From an uncultured bacterium (lineage in GTDB: Bacteria; Patescibacteriota; Minisyncoccia; Phycocordibacterales; UBA9973), in NCBI GenBank assembly GCA_903904195.1, contig CAIVBM010000026.1, positions 1 to 34,142 of the forward strand: 34,142 nt of DNA, in the 5' to 3' direction. Shown here piece after piece: positions 3,216 through 16,578 of this stretch. A model generated the notes under the pieces. It was not told the DNA's origin. It made no database searches and was given only the letters and a program-made list of their open reading frames with translations. Each line of letters begins with the position of its first letter. Positions within the stretch are counted from its first letter, which is position 1. Both the position numbers and the translations under genes were made by a program.

Positions 3216-4469
3216 ATGCCCAAATCAAACAAAGGGTCCCAAAAAAGAGTAGATAATATATATATGGATTATGCTGCCAGTGCAGAGGCGAATCCGAGTT
3301 CAATACATTCTATGGGAGTAAGTGCAAAAATGAAGCTACAAAATGCGCATAAAGATGTCGCTAAAGTTTTAAGTGCTCACTCTGATGAAATAATATTTAC
3401 GAGTGGGGGAACAGAGAGCAATAATCTTGCTATACAGGGTGTTTTGCTTGCGGTAAAGGAGCAAATGCCACATATCATAACTACAAACATAGAGCATCCA
3501 TCAGTGCTTGAGACTTTTAGACTTATGGAAAAAAGAAAGCTCGCAGAGATTTCTATCGTGCCAGTTGAATCAAACGGAATAGTAGACCCAAAAAAAATAA
3601 AAAAAGAAATAAAGAAAAATACTATACTCGTCTCTGTAATGTATGCGAATAATGAAATAGGTACGATACAGCCAATCAGAGAAATAGCAAAAGAAATCAG
3701 ACACTGGAAGAACCTCACCCGCTTTCAGCACCCTCTCCTTAATAAGGAGAGGGCTAGGGAGAGGTGTATTTTTCCTCTTTTTCATACTGATGCAGTGCAA
3801 GCAGTAAATTATTTGGATTTAAATGTAGAAAAGCTTGGTGTTGATTTGCTTTCATTGTCTGGATCAAAGATAGAAGGATCGGGGAGGGTGGGAGTTCTTT
3901 ATAAAAAGAAAAACGTTCAATTGGTAAATATATTTGGCGGGGGAAATCAAGAATTGGGACTGCGTCCAGGGACAGAAAATCTGCCGGAGATTTTAAAATT
4001 CTCAAAAGCTTTAGAGTTTACGCAGGAAATAAAAGAAAAGGAAAAAAAACGTTTAACAAAATTGCGAGATTACTTTACAGCAAAACTTCTTCGAATTTTT
4101 TATCCCCGAGGGTCCCACTCCGAAGGAGAAGGGCGCAGGGGGAAAAAATTTGAAGAAGTGAAGCTTTTATTTAATGGTGATTTAGAAAACAGATTGCCCA
4201 ATAATATAAATATAACGATTCCAAATATTCCGAGTGATCTTTTAGTTATAGAATTATCAGCTAATGGAGTAATGGTTTCTGAAAAGAGCGCTTGTGAGTC
4301 TGGCGATGGAAAAACTTCGTATGTTATAAAAGCAATTCGTCCAGACACAAAAGAAACAGATGGCTCTTTGAGGTTTTCTTTGGGTAGGGAAACAACAAAA
4401 AAAGAAATTATTTACACTATTAAAACTTTGTCTATTATTTTGAATAAACTAAAAAAGTGGTATAATTAA
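3216..4469 (+). CDS. Cysteine desulfurase (NifS/IscS family)
   Basis: FTSGGTESNNLAIQG, NNEIGTIQPI, HTDAVQA, GSK (PLP Lys), LRPGTENLP, SACESG active-site Cys. Contains two palindromic-element insertions. Confidence 0.93.
   Translation: MPKSNKGSQKRVDNIYMDYAASAEANPSSIHSMGVSAKMKLQNAHKDVAKVLSAHSDEIIFTSGGTESNNLAIQGVLLAVKEQMPHIITTNIEHPSVLETFRLMEKRKLAEISIVPVESNGIVDPKKIKKEIKKNTILVSVMYANNEIGTIQPIREIAKEIRHWKNLTRFQHPLLNKERARERCIFPLFHTDAVQAVNYLDLNVEKLGVDLLSLSGSKIEGSGRVGVLYKKKNVQLVNIFGGGNQELGLRPGTENLPEILKFSKALEFTQEIKEKEKKRLTKLRDYFTAKLLRIFYPRGSHSEGEGRRGKKFEEVKLLFNGDLENRLPNNINITIPNIPSDLLVIELSANGVMVSEKSACESGDGKTSYVIKAIRPDTKETDGSLRFSLGRETTKKEIIYTIKTLSIILNKLKKWYN
3711..3766. repeat. Palindromic repeat element inserted in frame in the cysteine desulfurase gene
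   Basis: CCCTCTCCTTA-a-TAAGGAGAGGG (11-bp arms) flanked by AACCTCACCC / GGGAGAGGTG imperfect outer arms; translated as NLTRFQHPLLNKERARER. Confidence 0.8.
4086..4158. repeat. Second palindromic element in the cysteine desulfurase gene
   Basis: CTTCTTCGAATTTTTTATCCCC (4086-4107) pairs imperfectly with GGGGGAAAAAATTTGAAGAAG (4138-4158) around a GC-rich core; translated LLRIFYPRGSHSEGEGRRGKKFEEV. Confidence 0.75.
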
Positions 4470-8018: not shown

Positions 8019-8027
8019 ATTACTTTG

Positions 8028-8110
8028 TGCGTCGAGAGGGATTCGAACCCCCGAAGCCCGAAGGCAACACGTTTACAGCGTGTCGTATTTGACCACTCTA
8101 CCATCGACGC
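8028..8110 (-). tRNA. tRNA-Tyr (GUA)
   Basis: Reverse complement: gcgtcga/tcgacgc acceptor, anticodon stem acacg-ctGTAaa-cgtgt, long variable arm, GGTTCGAATCC. Confidence 0.95.
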
Positions 8111-8155: not shown

Positions 8156-8184
8156 CTTCATGAAATTTTCACTTATACTATAAT
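8156..8184 (+). promoter_or_regulatory. Putative response-regulator direct repeat plus -10 box upstream of the FMN-binding operon
   Basis: CTTCATGAAATTTTCACTT (8156-8174; TTCA-N7-TTCA) followed by TATAAT at 8179-8184. Confidence 0.6.
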
Positions 8185-8197
8185 AAGATAGATAAAT

Positions 8198-8713
8198 ATG
8201 AAAAAATTCGTTTTATCTTTATTTGTTATAGTGTCTTTTGGATTTTATGTTATCTACCAAAACATGGGTAATTCTTCTGTTAGTTTTACAGCGCCAGTTG
8301 TTGCAAATAATACTACAAAAAAGCTTTCTAAAAAAACTATTGCAAATACTTCATCCGTTCCTGTTCAAGATAATTCTTCTACACAAGTTGCTGTTGTCCC
8401 AGTTATTACTCCATCTAAAAAAACAGGAATATATAATGACGGAGAATATATCGGTGATTCAGTAGATGCATATTATGGATATGTTCAAGTCAAAGCTGTG
8501 ATTACAAATGGCAGGCTTACGGATGTGGTTTTTTTAAACTATCCGCAAGATAGAAGTACTTCAGTTCGTATTAACTCACGCACTATGCCGATTTTGAAAC
8601 AAGAAGCCATAACTGCGCAAAGTGCAAATGTGAATGGTGTTTCTGGGGCATCTGAAACCAGCCCAGCCTTTATGAAATCTTTAGCATCTGCTTTGAGTCA
8701 GGCGAAAGTTTAA
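8198..8713 (+). CDS. Exported/membrane-anchored FMN-binding domain protein
   Basis: N-terminal signal/TM; YNDGEYIGDSVDAYYGYVQVKAVITNGRLTDVVFLNYPQDRSTS..., C-terminal GVSGASETS (flavinylation-type motif). Next to apbE. Confidence 0.88.
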   Translation: MKKFVLSLFVIVSFGFYVIYQNMGNSSVSFTAPVVANNTTKKLSKKTIANTSSVPVQDNSSTQVAVVPVITPSKKTGIYNDGEYIGDSVDAYYGYVQVKAVITNGRLTDVVFLNYPQDRSTSVRINSRTMPILKQEAITAQSANVNGVSGASETSPAFMKSLASALSQAKV

Positions 8714-8720
8714 AAACATT

Positions 8721-9464
8721 ATGAAAGAAATTAGAACGATAATGGGAATGCCTGCAAAGATAGAAATCATAGATTCAAATGCGACTAAAGAAGTCTTTGA
8801 AGAGATTTTTAATTACTTAATTTCTATTGATGAACATTTTAGTACATATAAGAAAAATAGTGAGATAACTTTATATAATGAAGGAAAAATTGCTGAAAAA
8901 GATTTAAGTAGTGATATGAAAAAAGTTTTCAAACTTTCGCAAGAAACCAAAGATCAAACTGATGGTTTTTTTGACATTAAATATAATGGCAAGATTGATC
9001 CCTCTGGGTTAGTAAAGGGTTGGGCTATTTATAATGCTTCCGAAATTTTACGTAAGAAAGGATTTAAGAATTTTTATGTAGAAATAGCGGGCGATATTGA
9101 AGTTGTAGGATTAAATAATGAAGGTGAGAAATGGGCCATCGGTATACGTAATCCATTTAATAAAAAAGAAAATGTGAAAATAGTTTATTTGAGTAATTGC
9201 GGAATAGCTACTTCTGGCACTTATGAAAGAGGAGATCACATTTATAATCCTAAAGAAAAAAAGTTGGCGAAAGAAATAGCTAGTCTGACTATAATTGGGC
9301 CAAATATTTATGAGGCGGATAGGTTTGTCTCAGCTTGTTTTGCGATGGGTAAGGCCGGGGTTTATTTCATTGAGAAATTGTCAGGTTTTGAAGGATATAT
9401 GATTGATCATGACGGTATCGCTACATTTACAAGTAATTTTGAAAAATATGTTAAAAATAATTGA
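8721..9464 (+). CDS. apbE: FAD:protein FMN transferase (ApbE family)
   Basis: MGMPAKIEI, GFFDIKYNGKIDPSGLVKGWAI, GDIEVVG, IATSGTYERGDHIYNP, EADRFVSACFAMG. Confidence 0.92.
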   Translation: MKEIRTIMGMPAKIEIIDSNATKEVFEEIFNYLISIDEHFSTYKKNSEITLYNEGKIAEKDLSSDMKKVFKLSQETKDQTDGFFDIKYNGKIDPSGLVKGWAIYNASEILRKKGFKNFYVEIAGDIEVVGLNNEGEKWAIGIRNPFNKKENVKIVYLSNCGIATSGTYERGDHIYNPKEKKLAKEIASLTIIGPNIYEADRFVSACFAMGKAGVYFIEKLSGFEGYMIDHDGIATFTSNFEKYVKNN

Positions 9465-10968
9465 TGATTTTTTAAATAGAACGACGATGTATAAAGTGGT
9501 GTTGTATTACCTCTTGGCTCTTTGGGTGATAGCATTTGTATTTTCTTTTGTTGGTATTTTGCCTTACACGCCATTTTCAATGGTTATTTCTCTTTTTATT
9601 TTACTGGGAGTTTCATGGGCTACGAATAATATTTTCTCTTATGTTTTTGAAGTTCCAGCTAACATTGAATCAATTTATATTTCTGTTTTTATTTTAGCTT
9701 TAATCATCACTCCAGCCCTTACTCCCTCTGAATATATCTTTTTAGGCTGGGCGGGGATTTTAGCAATGGCTTCAAAATATATTTTTGCCATTAAACATAA
9801 ACACATATTTAATCCAGTGGCTTTTTCTGTTGCTGTCACTGCTTTTTTCTTAAATCAAGGCGCCAGTTGGTGGGTGGGGACTGTTGCAATGGCTCCGTTT
9901 GTCCTTGTGGGTGGATTAATGATTGTGAAAAAAATAAAAAGAAAAGATCTCGCTCTTAGCTTTTTTATTGTTGCTCTTATTACTATTTCTTTTTTTACTT
10001 TATTAAATAAAGGAAACATTTTTAATTCTTTATATAATGCTTTATCCTATTCACCAATTTTGTTTTTTACATTTATTATGATTACCGAACCGCTCACCAC
10101 TCCGCCTTCTTCATTTTTGCGAATTTTATATGGGACGCTCGTTGGATTTTTATTTGCGCCACAAATACACATCGGGACATTTTATTTAACTCCCGAACTT
10201 GCTCTATTGTTCGGAAACATTTTCTCGTATTTAGTTAGTCCAAAGAAAAGATTAACCTTAAAACTTAAAAGGGCTGTGCAGATTGCTCCAGATACGGCTG
10301 AATTTATTTTTACTCCAGATTCTAAATTGAATTTTAAGCCAGGACAATATCTGGAGTGGACATTGGGTCATGAAAAAGTAGATAGCAGAGGTAATAGGCG
10401 ATATTTTACGATCGCTTCTTCTCCCACAGAAAAGGAATTACATTTAGGTGTTAAATTTTATCCAAATGGAAGCAGTTTTAAAAAAGCATTAGCATTTATG
10501 GAAGATGGCGACAAGATTATCGCTTCACAACTCTCTGGAGACTTTGTATTGCCAAGAAATAGAAAAAAGAAATTAGTATTTATCGCTGGTGGTATTGGTA
10601 TTACTCCTTTTAGAAGTATGATTCAGTATTTGATTGATACAAAACAAAAAAGAGACATTGTTCTCATCTATTCTAATAAAACAAAAATAGACATTGTGTA
10701 TAAAGATATTTTTGATAAGGCTAAAGATTGTTTTAATTTTAAAACAGTTTATACATTGACTGATTTGAAAGATGGACAAACAAACTGGATGGGTAGGAAG
10801 GGATATGTAGATGGAAAAATGATTTTAGATGAAGTAAAAGATTGGGATGAAAGAACTTATTATATTTCTGGTCCACCTTCTATGGTTTCTGGAACTGAAC
10901 AGGTAATTAAAAACTTAGGTCTTAGTAGTAGGCATATCAAAACCGACTTTTTCCCCGGATTTGCATAG
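9448..10968 (+). CDS. RnfD/NqrB-like membrane domain fused to FNR-type FAD/NAD(P)H reductase
   Basis: Multiple TMs with KHKHIFNPVAFSVAV and MITEPLTTPPSSF, then FKPGQYLEWTL, RRYFTIASSP, FIAGGIGITPFRSM, YYISGPPSMV. ATG 9448 is preferred over the track start at 9403, which overlaps apbE more. Confidence 0.85.
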   Translation: MLKIIDDFLNRTTMYKVVLYYLLALWVIAFVFSFVGILPYTPFSMVISLFILLGVSWATNNIFSYVFEVPANIESIYISVFILALIITPALTPSEYIFLGWAGILAMASKYIFAIKHKHIFNPVAFSVAVTAFFLNQGASWWVGTVAMAPFVLVGGLMIVKKIKRKDLALSFFIVALITISFFTLLNKGNIFNSLYNALSYSPILFFTFIMITEPLTTPPSSFLRILYGTLVGFLFAPQIHIGTFYLTPELALLFGNIFSYLVSPKKRLTLKLKRAVQIAPDTAEFIFTPDSKLNFKPGQYLEWTLGHEKVDSRGNRRYFTIASSPTEKELHLGVKFYPNGSSFKKALAFMEDGDKIIASQLSGDFVLPRNRKKKLVFIAGGIGITPFRSMIQYLIDTKQKRDIVLIYSNKTKIDIVYKDIFDKAKDCFNFKTVYTLTDLKDGQTNWMGRKGYVDGKMILDEVKDWDERTYYISGPPSMVSGTEQVIKNLGLSSRHIKTDFFPGFA

Positions 10969-10976
10969 GGTATGTG

Positions 10977-11009
10977 CTTCATGAAATTTTCACTTTTAGG
11001 TGATATCAT
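10977..11009 (+). promoter_or_regulatory. Putative response-regulator direct repeat plus -10-like box upstream of the response regulator
   Basis: CTTCATGAAATTTTCACTT (10977-10995), identical over 19 nt to 8156-8174; TATCAT at 11004-11009, 6 nt before ATG. Confidence 0.6.
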
Positions 11010-11015
11010 ATAAAT

Positions 11016-11684
11016 ATGAAAATATTAGTAGTTGAAGATAATAAAAAATTAGCGGAAAATTTGAAACAAGGCCTTACCCAAGAAGGTTATGCTGTTGATG
11101 TGATAGAAGATGGAATTTCTGCGGAGCGTAGGATTTTGATAAATCGTGATGAATACGATTTGATCATTTTAGATAGATTGCTTCCTGGAAAAGACGGAGT
11201 TTCTGTTTGTAATAATTGGCGAGAGAATAGTGTAGTTATTCCTATATTAATGCTTACGGCGCTGGACACTATAGATGACAAAGTGGTCGGTCTTGAAGCA
11301 GGGGCAGATGATTATTTGGCAAAACCATTTGCTTTTAAAGAACTTCTCGCCCGTATTCATGCTCTTCTTCGTCGTCCAAAACAGACTTCACCTATTGTGC
11401 TTGCTTCTGGTAATATCAATATGAATACGACAAACAGGACGGTCACTTATAAAAATAAAACAATTTCTCTCACCCTAAAAGAATTTATGGTGCTAGAATA
11501 TTTGATGCGTAATCCAGGTAAGGTAATAACACGAGATGAACTTTATTCTCATGCTTGGGACTTTGCGGATTCGTCATTTAGTAATACTGTGGATGTACAT
11601 ATAAAGAATTTAAGAAGAAAAATTAATGATAATGCAAAAATTATACAAACAATTCGTGGAGTCGGTTACAAAATGGAAAACTAG
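11016..11684 (+). CDS. OmpR-family response regulator
   Basis: Receiver domain (DLIILDRLLPGKDG, ALDTIDDKVVGLEAGADDYLAKPFAFKELLARI) and winged-helix DNA-binding domain (LRRKINDNAKIIQTIRGVGYKME). Confidence 0.95.
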   Translation: MKILVVEDNKKLAENLKQGLTQEGYAVDVIEDGISAERRILINRDEYDLIILDRLLPGKDGVSVCNNWRENSVVIPILMLTALDTIDDKVVGLEAGADDYLAKPFAFKELLARIHALLRRPKQTSPIVLASGNINMNTTNRTVTYKNKTISLTLKEFMVLEYLMRNPGKVITRDELYSHAWDFADSSFSNTVDVHIKNLRRKINDNAKIIQTIRGVGYKMEN

Positions 11685-12736: not shown

Positions 12737-13201
12737 ATGAAATATAAGAAACAAATAGCTACTGGCGCACTCGCAATATCTTTGTTGGTGGGAGGTTCTA
12801 GCGTTTTTGCTTCATCTCCTCAAGATATAGGTATTAAAAATGTTCAACCAACTTATCAAAAGCAAAATAAGAATGAAAAAAATTCTAATGCCACAAATAA
12901 GGCAAACGGTAGCGTAGTTGGGACCATTGGAGCAATTACAAGCACAGGTTTTACTGTAGAAGTAAAAGATTTGAAGAAAAAGGCTGTTTCTGAAGTAAGT
13001 GTCACAACAAATGCTTCAACTACTTATAGTAAAAATGGTGCTAGTGCTACAGCATCTGATTTAGCTGTTGGACAAAAGGTAATTGTCTCTGGCAATTTAG
13101 ACAAAACAACAAATACTATAACTGCTAAAACAGTAAAAATAGTTATCGCTGTTGCTTCTAAAAAAACATCTACAAAAGCAAATATAAAAACAAACAAATA
13201 A
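12737..13201 (+). CDS. Exported DUF5666-like protein
   Basis: Signal peptide, then VVGTIGAITSTGFTVEVK...TTYSKNGASATASDLAVGQKVIVSGNLDKTTNTITAKTVKI. Confidence 0.65.
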   Translation: MKYKKQIATGALAISLLVGGSSVFASSPQDIGIKNVQPTYQKQNKNEKNSNATNKANGSVVGTIGAITSTGFTVEVKDLKKKAVSEVSVTTNASTTYSKNGASATASDLAVGQKVIVSGNLDKTTNTITAKTVKIVIAVASKKTSTKANIKTNK

Positions 13202-13270: not shown

Positions 13271-13341
13271 TTAGCTTGAAATATAAAGCACAAAATAAGA
13301 AATTTGAGGATATACCAAAAATATGATATATTTATTTGTAT

Positions 13342-14409
13342 ATGATACACAAACACATTAAATCGTTACCGCATCATCCTAAAAGAGTAGTTATTATATC
13401 TTTGGTTGTTGCTGTTCTTGTTGGTTTTGGTGGATATATGGAAATTAATAAAAAAATATTAAGTCCTGAAATTATACCGAGCTTTGATACGGTAAATTCT
13501 TTGACTTCTCATGATCTATCACTTGGTTTTCTCGCTGGTGGTAGAATCAAAACAGTTTCAGTCAAAGCTGGAGATAAGGTAAAGACTGGCCAAGTACTCG
13601 CAGCCCTTGATGCTGGGAATACAGAAGGCGCATTGTCTCAAGCAAAGGCTGCTTATGAAACAGCTGAGGCTAATTATTTGAAAGTTGTAAATGGAGCTAC
13701 GAGTTCTGCTATTGATGTGGCAAAAGCTGCAGTAAATACAGCACAAGTTAATCTAGATGGAATTACCAAACAACAAGCACAGCTTGTTCAAAACGCTCAT
13801 AAAAATTTATTAAATTCCACTCCTGAAGCATTACCAATTTCTGGAAATAGTGATTCTTCTGCTCCGACAATAAGCGGTAATTACAATTTAGATACCGAAG
13901 GTCAGATAGTTATCTCTGTTTATTTTACTGGAAATGGTACTGGTTTTAGTGCGAGCGGTATCGTGAGTGGTAGTGGAATTGTTGCTACATCAACACCTCA
14001 ACCAATAGGGAATTCTGGACTTTATATTAAATTTCCAAGTACTAGCAACATAAGTATTACTGAATGGACTATTGATATTCCAAACAAGAAAGCTTCAAAT
14101 TATTTAACAAATTACAATGCTTATCAATCTGCTCTACAGATGCAAAGTCAAGCAGTTGCTGGTGCTCAAGCTCTTCTTGATCAAGCCCAGGCTTCTTTAG
14201 CTGCTCTTGTTTCAACCGCTCGTCCAGAGGACATAGCGATAGCTAAAGCTCAAGTAGACAATGCAGCTGGCGCCGTACAGATAGCTTTGGCTGCTTATAA
14301 CAACACTGTTATCACCGCTCCTTCTGACGGTACCATATTATCAGTCGCTATTACTCCTGGACAAATTGCAACACCAAATACTCCAGCAATAGAATTTATA
14401 AGTAACTAA
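13342..14409 (+). CDS. HlyD/MFP-like adaptor: lipoyl halves and helical hairpin, no barrel domain
   Basis: GGRIKTVSVKAGDKVKTGQVLAALD, Ala/Gln-rich helices, ITAPSDGTILSVAITPGQIATPNTPAIEFISN*. ATG 13342 is an alternative to the TTG at 13336. Confidence 0.75.
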   Translation: MIHKHIKSLPHHPKRVVIISLVVAVLVGFGGYMEINKKILSPEIIPSFDTVNSLTSHDLSLGFLAGGRIKTVSVKAGDKVKTGQVLAALDAGNTEGALSQAKAAYETAEANYLKVVNGATSSAIDVAKAAVNTAQVNLDGITKQQAQLVQNAHKNLLNSTPEALPISGNSDSSAPTISGNYNLDTEGQIVISVYFTGNGTGFSASGIVSGSGIVATSTPQPIGNSGLYIKFPSTSNISITEWTIDIPNKKASNYLTNYNAYQSALQMQSQAVAGAQALLDQAQASLAALVSTARPEDIAIAKAQVDNAAGAVQIALAAYNNTVITAPSDGTILSVAITPGQIATPNTPAIEFISN

Positions 14410-14419
14410 ATAAAATAAT

Positions 14420-15070
14420 ATGGAAAATAAAGTAGAAGAGAAAAAAGAAAAAGAGAGTATCTTTAAAAAGCCATGGGTGCGTAGTTTGGTGTATTTTATT
14501 GTTATATTTGGAGCACTTTTTGTATTTTTATTTTGGCAAGTAAACAAAGACACTGTTTTCATTGAGAATTCTCTCTTGGATGCGCCAATCATAAATCTTT
14601 CTCCGACATTACCAGGGACATTAAATGCTTTATATGTAAAAGAGGGGGATCATGTTCTTGCAAATTCAGAAATAGCGCTTGTTGGATCTCAAATTATTTA
14701 TACCAAAGATGGTGGTATAGTGTCTTTCGCTCCGGATGTTTTGGGTTCTTATTTTTCTCCTGGTCAGACAGTAGTTTCTATAGTTAATGTTAATGAGATG
14801 AAAGTTGTGGGCCAAATAGAAGAAACAAAAGGATTGAGTAGTCTAAAAGCGGGTCAACGTGCGACATTTACGGTAGATACTTTTTCAGGTAAAAATTATG
14901 AAGGTATAGTAGATCAAATAAGTCCGGTTTCAAGCAATACTGGTGTCGTTTTTTCTATTTCAGACAAGCGTCCTGTACAGAAATTTGATGTTAAGGTCCG
15001 TTTTAATGTTGCAGATTATCCTGAATTGAAGAGTGGAATGTCCGCAAAAATAACTGTTCACACTAAATAA
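14420..15070 (+). CDS. HlyD/EmrA-like membrane fusion protein lacking helical hairpin
   Basis: TM, then LSPTLPGTLNALYVKEGDHVLANSEIALVG, GQTVVSIVNVNEMKVVGQIEETKGLSSLKAGQRATFTVD, LKSGMSAKITVHTK. Confidence 0.75.
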   Translation: MENKVEEKKEKESIFKKPWVRSLVYFIVIFGALFVFLFWQVNKDTVFIENSLLDAPIINLSPTLPGTLNALYVKEGDHVLANSEIALVGSQIIYTKDGGIVSFAPDVLGSYFSPGQTVVSIVNVNEMKVVGQIEETKGLSSLKAGQRATFTVDTFSGKNYEGIVDQISPVSSNTGVVFSISDKRPVQKFDVKVRFNVADYPELKSGMSAKITVHTK

Positions 15071-15075
15071 TAAGT

Positions 15076-16578
15076 ATGGAAGAAAATGGTAACGGTAAGG
15101 GTTCGAGCTTGCGTTGGTGGATATTGCTCACAGTTATAGTGGGGACTTTTTTAGGGCGTTTAGACCAGACGATAGTCAACCTCGCTCTTCCAAAAATTAT
15201 TAATGATTTCAGCATCACTGTCACGGCTGCAGGGTGGATTGCCACTGCTTATATTTTAGCGAATGCTGTCTTTGTCCCGATCTGGGGAAAGTTGGGAGAC
15301 ACTATTGGAAGAAAAAAGGTTTACATTTTAGGTTTTGCTATTTTTATTTTAGGTTCAGTTCTGGCTGGGCTTTCTTGGAATCTTTCATCTATGATAGTTT
15401 TCCGTATTATTCAAGCGATAGCTGGTTCGGCTGATTATCCCACAGCGATGGCCATCTTGGCTGTTACTTTTAGAGAAGGAAAGGAACGCGCACAAGCGCT
15501 TGGTATTTGGTCCTCATCATTTGCCGCAGCGATAGTTTTCGGACCACTTTTAGGAGGACCTTTGATTGATAATTTTGGTTGGCGTTCGGTTTTTCTTATA
15601 AACCTTCCTATAGGTATTTTGGGTATTTTGATGGCTTTGCGTTTCATAAATGAATCACGTGATGAATCATTGGCTCAAAAAGATAATAATTTTGATTGGT
15701 GGGGCGCAATTACTTTGGGAGCCATGTTGTCTGCCCTTGTTTTGGTTTTAGACAGGGGGTCTGATTGGGGATGGCTTTCAGCTGGAAGCATGATTTGTTA
15801 TTTTTCAATTATTACTTTTCTTGGTCTATTTATTAAGATTGAGCATAAAGCACTTGAACCTATTGTTGATCTTAAATTTTTCAGAATTCCTGCATTTGTC
15901 AATGCGCTCGTAAATAATTTCGTTGTTTTCATGGGTATGATGGGTGGAGTATTTTTGATACCGGTTTTTGCCCAAACATTTTTAGGATATACTGCCACTG
16001 AGTCAGGATATCTTTTTATGCCTATAGCCGTGGCGATAATGATTGCCTCTCCGCTTGGAGGAATGCTTTCCGGAAAAGTGCAATCTAAATATGTGATATT
16101 CGTAAGCACACTCGTAGCGGCGCTGGGTATTTATCTTTTTACAGGACTTGATGCAAGATCAACTGCTTTTGACATCATGATTCCTTTGACAGTTATGGCA
16201 TTTGGCCTTGGTTTTGGTATGGCTCAGCGTACCAACATTGTTGCATCGGTTGTTCCAGAAAGTGAAATAGGTATAGCTTCATCTATTCTTGCTTTAGTAA
16301 GAAATATTGCAGGAGCATTTGGTATAGCTATTTTTGCCACAATATTAACCAATAGAATTGATACTAACGTTCTTGTGATTAATGGTTTTAGTAAACTTTT
16401 TTCTCATGTTCCTTTAGTAATTCAAAAATATATTGTTCTTATAACACTAAAAGCTCAGATAGATGCATATAATTATGTATTTCTTATTGCCTCAATTATT
16501 GTCTTTATTGGATCATTTACAATACTATTCATGAAGTTGGAAAAAGAACGAACAGATATCAAGGTGCAGGTAGAATAA
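15076..16578 (+). CDS. MFS transporter, DHA2 (EmrB/QacA) type
   Basis: FLGRLDQTIVNLALPKI, GWIATAYILANAVFVPIWGKLGDTIGRKKVY, about 14 hydrophobic segments. Confidence 0.92.
   Translation: MEENGNGKGSSLRWWILLTVIVGTFLGRLDQTIVNLALPKIINDFSITVTAAGWIATAYILANAVFVPIWGKLGDTIGRKKVYILGFAIFILGSVLAGLSWNLSSMIVFRIIQAIAGSADYPTAMAILAVTFREGKERAQALGIWSSSFAAAIVFGPLLGGPLIDNFGWRSVFLINLPIGILGILMALRFINESRDESLAQKDNNFDWWGAITLGAMLSALVLVLDRGSDWGWLSAGSMICYFSIITFLGLFIKIEHKALEPIVDLKFFRIPAFVNALVNNFVVFMGMMGGVFLIPVFAQTFLGYTATESGYLFMPIAVAIMIASPLGGMLSGKVQSKYVIFVSTLVAALGIYLFTGLDARSTAFDIMIPLTVMAFGLGFGMAQRTNIVASVVPESEIGIASSILALVRNIAGAFGIAIFATILTNRIDTNVLVINGFSKLFSHVPLVIQKYIVLITLKAQIDAYNYVFLIASIIVFIGSFTILFMKLEKERTDIKVQVE

Follow-up and report, generated by a model that had tools for sequence, protein, structure and literature searches.

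The locus raises the question of whether three adjoining genes of a reduced-genome, Nomurabacteria-like bacterium encode an ion pump or a one-way electron wire, and what such a device would serve. The window, by which we mean the entire 34,142-nucleotide stretch of DNA analyzed, is contig 26 of a 679 kb genome that is 95.5% complete. The three genes are co-directional, are separated by short gaps or overlap, and are bounded by a tRNA gene and a response regulator gene (11016); the open reading frames described in a first-pass annotation are all present:

8027-8110, minus strand, tRNA-Tyr
8198-8713, plus strand, FMN_bind protein of 171 aa (Pfam PF04205)
8721-9464, plus strand, ApbE FAD:protein FMN transferase of 247 aa (PF02424)
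9448-10968, plus strand, fusion protein of 506 aa with an RnfD/NqrB-like membrane domain (residues 1-263) and an FNR-type FAD/NAD(P)H domain (approximately 268-502)

According to our analysis, this gene set very probably serves to move electrons out of the cell, from cytosolic NAD(P)H via the membrane protein to an externally anchored flavin. The gene order is not due to chance, because it recurs in dozens of other genomes. At this locus the nearest relative with a name is L034, a Candidatus Nomurabacteria genome, in which the fusion is 75% identical and the flanking genes match.

Pfam searches confirmed the FMN_bind, ApbE and FAD_binding_6/NAD_binding_1 domains of the first-pass annotation, with 24.9 bits for the product of 8198-8713 against PF04205 (cut-off 22), 129.7 bits for ApbE against PF02424, and 67.8 and 23.8 bits for the fusion against NAD_binding_1 (PF00175) and FAD_binding_6 (PF00970), respectively. 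ApbE also matched PDB entry 4xgw (E 5e-18). The N-terminal half of the fusion scored 24.7 bits (E 1.9e-5) against NQR2_RnfD_RnfE (PF03116), slightly under the cut-off of 27.7, yet its earlier assignment as NqrB/RnfD-like holds up. Judging from sequence comparison, the weak match is real because 48 of 50 fusion relatives match PF03116 (best E 1.8e-13) and because the profile of the membrane half has a single match in the PDB, the RnfD of an Rnf complex (8ahx_D, E 1.3e-5, residues 152-260). The AF2 model of the fusion (pLDDT 87.7, pTM 0.81) agrees with the proposed architecture, showing about 10 transmembrane helices followed by an FNR fold. Foldseek returned FNR-domain matches alone among the top 50 listed, which thus leave the membrane fold uncovered. 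The FNR half matches NqrF and flavohaemoproteins, and at most positions of its signatures RRYFTIASSP and GGIGITPF the 50 relatives show little or no variation. The fusion most likely starts at the ATG at 9448, and not at the mechanically assigned TTG at 9403; relatives also start at the position of this ATG, from which the gene overlaps apbE by 17 nt.

The FMN_bind protein consists of an N-terminal membrane-anchor helix (residues 2-23), a low-complexity linker and the FMN_bind domain (approximately 82-170), within which the AF2 model reaches a pLDDT of about 85-96. This domain superposes on domain 2 of SaFMN3 (PDB 8p2a; Foldseek TMt 0.91, rmsd 1.1 Å), with which it shares the fold, the position of the motif and 37% identity. 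SaFMN3, a soluble multi-FMN protein of Streptomyces, is the nearest relative of the domain with a solved structure; its FMN is attached to Thr (PMC10339131), whereas the window protein offers a Ser at this place:

8633-8653, plus strand, flavinylation motif NGVSGAS, located by alignment and by the motif of PMC12052999, with the predicted acceptor Ser152 at codon 8651-8653

The residue to which ApbE attaches FMN is the final one of D-x-x-[S/T]-G-A-[S/T] (PMC12052999). The motif is present here within the FMN_bind fold, with Asn in place of Asp, as also in 24 of 74 relatives. The Thr encoded at 8657-8659, which had been put forward as the FMN acceptor, is not borne out: this residue, Thr154, lies two positions beyond the one that the known motif designates, and Ser152 is the expected acceptor. 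Of the 74 relatives with the motif, 60 offer Thr as the acceptor residue and the other 14 Ser, and Ser is reported to be less well modified than Thr (PMC12052999).

We consider it likely that these proteins form an Nqr/Rnf-like flavin electron-export module, with cytosolic loading by ApbE and a two-component switch. The genes, their domains and predicted folds, the motif, the recurrence, the lack of PF02508 subunits and the operator pattern are observations; for the direction of electron flow, the cytosolic loading, the pairing of regulator and operator, and the acceptor, we infer the following course. Cytosolic NAD(P)H would be oxidized via FAD by the FNR domain at the C-terminus of the fusion; in the RnfD/NqrB-like domain, a flavin that is probably bound non-covalently would carry the electrons across the membrane, and they would arrive outside at the FMN held by a phosphoester bond on Ser152 of the membrane-anchored FMN_bind protein. 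From there they would pass to an extracytosolic acceptor, candidates being ferric iron, cupric ions, oxygen and quinone-like compounds. ApbE would attach the FMN by acting in the cytosol on the FMN_bind chain before its export, and the adjoining two-component system would switch the operon, itself and a DUF5666 protein via shared direct-repeat operators. The route from NAD(P)H via FAD and the membrane domain to extracytosolic FMN was already contained in the first-pass annotation; it is supported, as are the domain assignments, and coincides with the proposal for a published class. Since the potential of SaFMN3 lies at -184 mV and oxygen reacts with its reduced form (PMC10339131), electron flow from NADH to FMN would, by analogy, be downhill and oxygen a possible acceptor. 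The module is also a haem-free and, judged by its domains, iron-sulfur-free electron exit from a reduced-genome cell.

The kind of system is already known. The window system is a member of the NQR/RNF-like flavinylation systems, which Meheust et al. (2021; PMC8238504) defined by exactly such a fusion of an RnfD/NqrB-like and an NAD-binding domain, reported in 127 clusters, mainly of Actinobacteria and the candidate phyla radiation, and proposed to conduct electrons in one direction, with NAD(P)H as the donor and an FMN domain outside the cytosol as the recipient. The presence of the module in this lineage is therefore not unexpected. Membership in the class requires FMN_bind or apbE no more than five genes away, at least one of them with a predicted export signal; here an N-terminal NqrB/RnfD-like membrane domain is followed by a C-terminal PF00175 domain, and the fusion adjoins an FMN_bind protein whose N-terminal membrane helix, according to hydropathy and AF2, is the predicted export signal. 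An AlphaFold-multimer model of the two Ktedonobacter subunits shows them in contact, and in that work the flavinylated Thr of the membrane domain is described as lost and the FMN subunit is treated as extracytosolic (Huang et al., 2024; PMC10979944/PMC11334425). The window shares with this class the fusion of a PF03116-type domain with PF00175, the adjoining FMN_bind and apbE genes and the lack of a flavinylated Thr in the membrane domain; its own traits are the Ser acceptor and the adjoining two-component system with shared operators. New in comparison with the published class are thus the predicted two-component control circuit and the puzzle of an ApbE that has no export signal; the first-pass annotation overlooked both this lack and the two-component system with shared operators directly downstream.

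Other systems are related more distantly. Na+-NQR and RNF have the RnfD/NqrB-like domain, an FMN_bind domain of the NqrC/RnfG type and an NqrF-like FAD/NADH domain in common with the window, which however lacks NqrD/E or RnfA/E and a covalent FMN site in the NqrB-like part, and in which the reductase is fused to the membrane domain without a semicircular electron path. NOX, MsrQ-like and ferric-reductase fusions (PF01794 with FNR) likewise consist of a membrane domain followed by an FAD/NAD(P)H reductase and send electrons outward. The Ferric_reduct domain (PF01794) by which they are recognized was not found in the window fusion by Pfam; having an RnfD-like domain in place of this haem-binding one, the fusion should need flavins only. 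Gram-positive flavin-based EET (Ndh2, EetAB, FmnAB, PplA) also combines a flavinylated protein anchored outside with an ApbE-type transferase and NADH as the source, whereas the window has an ApbE without lipoprotein signal, a single FMN motif and a direct membrane fusion.

The putative control circuit comprises three operator copies and three further genes:

8156-8177, plus strand, operator copy 1, direct repeat CTTCAT-GAAATT-TTCACTT with a period of 11 bp, overlapping the place where the operon's -35 region is expected
8179-8184, TATAAT following operator copy 1
10977-10998, plus strand, operator copy 2, upstream of the response regulator gene
11016-11684, plus strand, OmpR/PhoB-family response regulator of 222 aa, receiver PF00072 and Trans_reg_C PF00486
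11626-12657, plus strand, sensor histidine kinase of 343 aa, PF00512 and PF02518
12650-12671, plus strand, operator copy 3 (CTTCATAAAGATTTCATTTATT), upstream of the DUF5666 gene
12737-13201, plus strand, DUF5666 protein of 154 aa, PF18914 (31.2 bits)

The 22-nt sequence CTTCATGAAATTTTCACTTATA lies upstream of the operon (8156) and of the response regulator (10977) and, 77% identical, upstream of the DUF5666 gene (12650). The pattern CTTCATnA....TTCA was first found by inspection of the window; searched as TTCAYNAANNTTTCAYTT, it has exactly three sites genome-wide, all in the window and all on the plus strand, and the reversed-pattern control has none. The repeat recurs at the corresponding places in L034, L035 and L108, and in nine promoters of the four genomes the CTTCAT, one A and the TTCA columns are invariant. 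A chance origin of the operator was rejected on account of the three sites and this conservation. Among 76 loci, nine have the looser form TTCAY-N6-TTCAY no more than 150 nt upstream of FMN_bind, where 0.0023 would be expected per locus. The window and the relatives that first showed the pattern account for four of these, which leaves five as independent, and the distant matches in L067 and L074 may be due to chance. An 11-bp repeat period fits regulators of the PhoB/OmpR type. The response regulator, which is 85% identical in L034 and 75% in L108, is predicted to act at these direct repeats; the histidine kinase is 75% identical in L034. The DUF5666 protein is probably secreted and is predicted to be the third regulon member, and its gene carries the same operator in L034. 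The predicted regulon offers a way to learn under which circumstances such cells employ the electron-export module.

Two observations on the surroundings may be added. L034 has a fourth operator-type copy (TTCACAAACTTTTCAC; 3762-3777, plus strand) 38 nt before a clpC-like gene, and no match precedes the window's copy of that gene (5295). Between DUF5666 and typA/bipA, the window holds two HlyD-type adaptor genes (13336-14409 and 14420-15070) and an MFS exporter (15076-16578); in L034 typA directly follows DUF5666, and the efflux set 13336-16578 was therefore either inserted in the window or lost in L034.

As to physiology, we favor a device for electron export that is inducible and delivers to a metal ion, to oxygen or to a quinone-like compound. 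A version of this explanation with the role specified is that the same wire is an inducible envelope metal or redox-stress reductase, serving mainly defence (Cu(II), Fe(III), oxygen, disulfides) and not the disposal of fermentation electrons. We regard this as a serious possibility, though somewhat short of probable. The adjoining two-component system with its shared operators speaks for it. The best NCBIfam relatives of the response regulator, all below cut-off, are RppA, CztR/SilR/CopR and PmrA; its high score against CztR/SilR/CopR would suit a metal response, but it also scores high against the non-metal families RppA and PmrA. Among the genes near the module, the CopA-type ATPase cluster is found in nine loci and ABC ATPase genes in 18, a VIT1 gene adjoins the module in L036, and the neighbors in L103 and L108 are a CopA-type ATPase, a cupredoxin-like protein and a DsbD_2/HMA protein. 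However, the neighbors differ between lineages and most loci have no nearby metal gene. Histidine kinases occur near the module in 17 loci and MacA/HlyD-like adaptors in 14.

Envelope flavoproteins made by ApbE are taken to be finished outside the membrane, for which both ApbE and FAD have to be exported. The window ApbE has neither signal peptide nor lipobox; its domain starts at Met1, and the open frame permits no hydrophobic extension. As judged by hydropathy and open frames, none of 68 fusion-adjacent ApbEs bears an export signal; their domain starts at Met1 or close to it (MK.TR.IMGMP). A hydrophobic segment or membrane anchor at the N-terminus is present in 76 of 77 FMN_bind partners, and the remaining one is truncated at a contig end. 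We place ApbE in the cytosol because an export signal is lacking here and in relatives, and its combination with an anchored partner suggests that FMN is loaded in the cytosol before export. The main texts of Meheust et al. (2021) and Huang et al. (2024) do not discuss the location of an ApbE without export signal, and we found no precedent for cytosolic flavinylation of a Sec substrate with the motif about 20 residues from the C-terminus. A seven-residue motif is sufficient for ApbE according to a review (PMC12052999), and modification of the unfolded FMN_bind chain in the cytosol is therefore conceivable. We tentatively posit, with more doubt than confidence, that throughout the class, and perhaps throughout Patescibacteria, a signal-less ApbE loads FMN inside and Sec passes the chain, with the module as one output of an envelope two-component regulon. 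Should ApbE stay inside throughout a large class whose substrates are exported, either Sec passes a flavin-bearing chain or ApbE exits unconventionally; with FMN_bind loaded before Sec, the bacteria would need no FAD exporter.

The absence of a signal is not a trait special to the NQR/RNF-like class, an idea that was rejected since 30 ApbE loci sampled in the order likewise appear signal-less. Most non-NQR-like ApbEs in Chloroflexota also have no signal; one Tat-type signal was seen in L116. The window ApbE is a compact form lacking about 50 Pfam positions (75-125), and such two-piece matches (1-75 and 125-265) characterize the ApbEs of the main branch. Compactness was rejected as a class hallmark and is a subfamily trait only, since the fusions of L155, L156, L158 and L174 are accompanied by full-length ApbEs. 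In L162, an order relative (G270), the ApbE frame contains two internal TGA codons and is either a pseudogene or read with recoded TGA. As for FAD synthase, the genome has two sub-threshold matches to PF06574, both general nucleotidyltransferases by NCBIfam, and no RibF above cut-off. A nucleotidyltransferase of 137 aa on contig C22 of the same genome (L178, 1186-1596, minus strand) resembles short archaeal-type FAD synthetases or glycerol-3-phosphate cytidylyltransferase.

The problem of ApbE localization would disappear if the topology were inverted, so that ApbE and the FMN domain alike lay in the cytosol and the module were a membrane-bound cytosolic diaphorase. This is very improbable. 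The flanks of the membrane helix of the FMN_bind proteins carry a mean charge of +2.1 before and +0.5 after it (29 proteins), from which the FMN domain at the C-terminus is predicted to be outside; the positive-inside rule and the N-terminal KK thus argue against inversion, as do the low-complexity Pro/Thr/Ser linkers, typical of surface proteins, and the published model, in which the FMN subunit is extracytosolic.

For the electron-export module, the first-pass annotation had left open a one-pump or a one-wire chain. An energy-conserving pump, i.e., a minimal Nqr/Rnf in which oxidation of NAD(P)H by the fusion drives ion translocation, would agree with the homology of the membrane domain to RnfD/NqrB and with an NADH to FMN step that, provided the SaFMN3 value applies, runs downhill by about 0.1 V. 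However, no gene of the NqrD/E and RnfA/E family (PF02508) was found in the 95.5%-complete genome by a search that was positive in four control genomes, which extends to the whole genome, for PF02508, the earlier remark that the window has no other Rnf/Nqr subunit. The covalent FMN site of NqrB/RnfD is also absent: the [S/T]GA[S/T] motif is missing from the membrane half in 50 sequences, apart from one loose match (TAAS) in L064. In addition, the route proposed in the literature is unidirectional (Meheust et al., 2021), and the module apparently belongs to an inducible regulon. We hold a pump to be very unlikely; the one-way wire is better supported, because a PF02508 gene is lacking and the ApbE, FMN_bind and RnfD/NqrB-like (PF03116) domains are each present in a single copy across the genome. 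That ApbE acts on another cytosolic substrate and not on the window FMN_bind protein, as in the case of the Klebsiella fumarate reductase, is very unlikely: cytosolic ApbEs with cytosolic substrates exist (PMC12052999), but the two genes are adjacent in most relatives, the genome holds no second ApbE or FMN_bind gene, and the flavinylation motif is conserved in FMN_bind.

The same three-gene set is found in Patescibacteria, Chloroflexota and one Actinobacteria bin. At least 564 pattern-matched stretches in the GTDB collection encode relatives of the fusion, and nearly all of the best 80 of these contain the whole operon, with apbE adjoining FMN_bind in most relatives. Within the genus the distribution is patchy, with a full-length fusion in 6 of 36 genomes, the window's own included; several of the other genomes have FNR proteins of the ferric-reductase type (PF01794). 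A quick single tree places Chloroflexota on one side of a weakly supported branch, from which nothing firm can be said for horizontal transfer. In L036 (7473-10259) the module has no adjacent apbE and is followed by a gene for a VIT1-family iron transporter. In genus and order genomes where no RnfD-like fusion was found (L012, L014, L015 and L017), ferric-reductase/NOX-type PF01794 domains are fused to FNR, and these fusions are a possible haem-based alternative.
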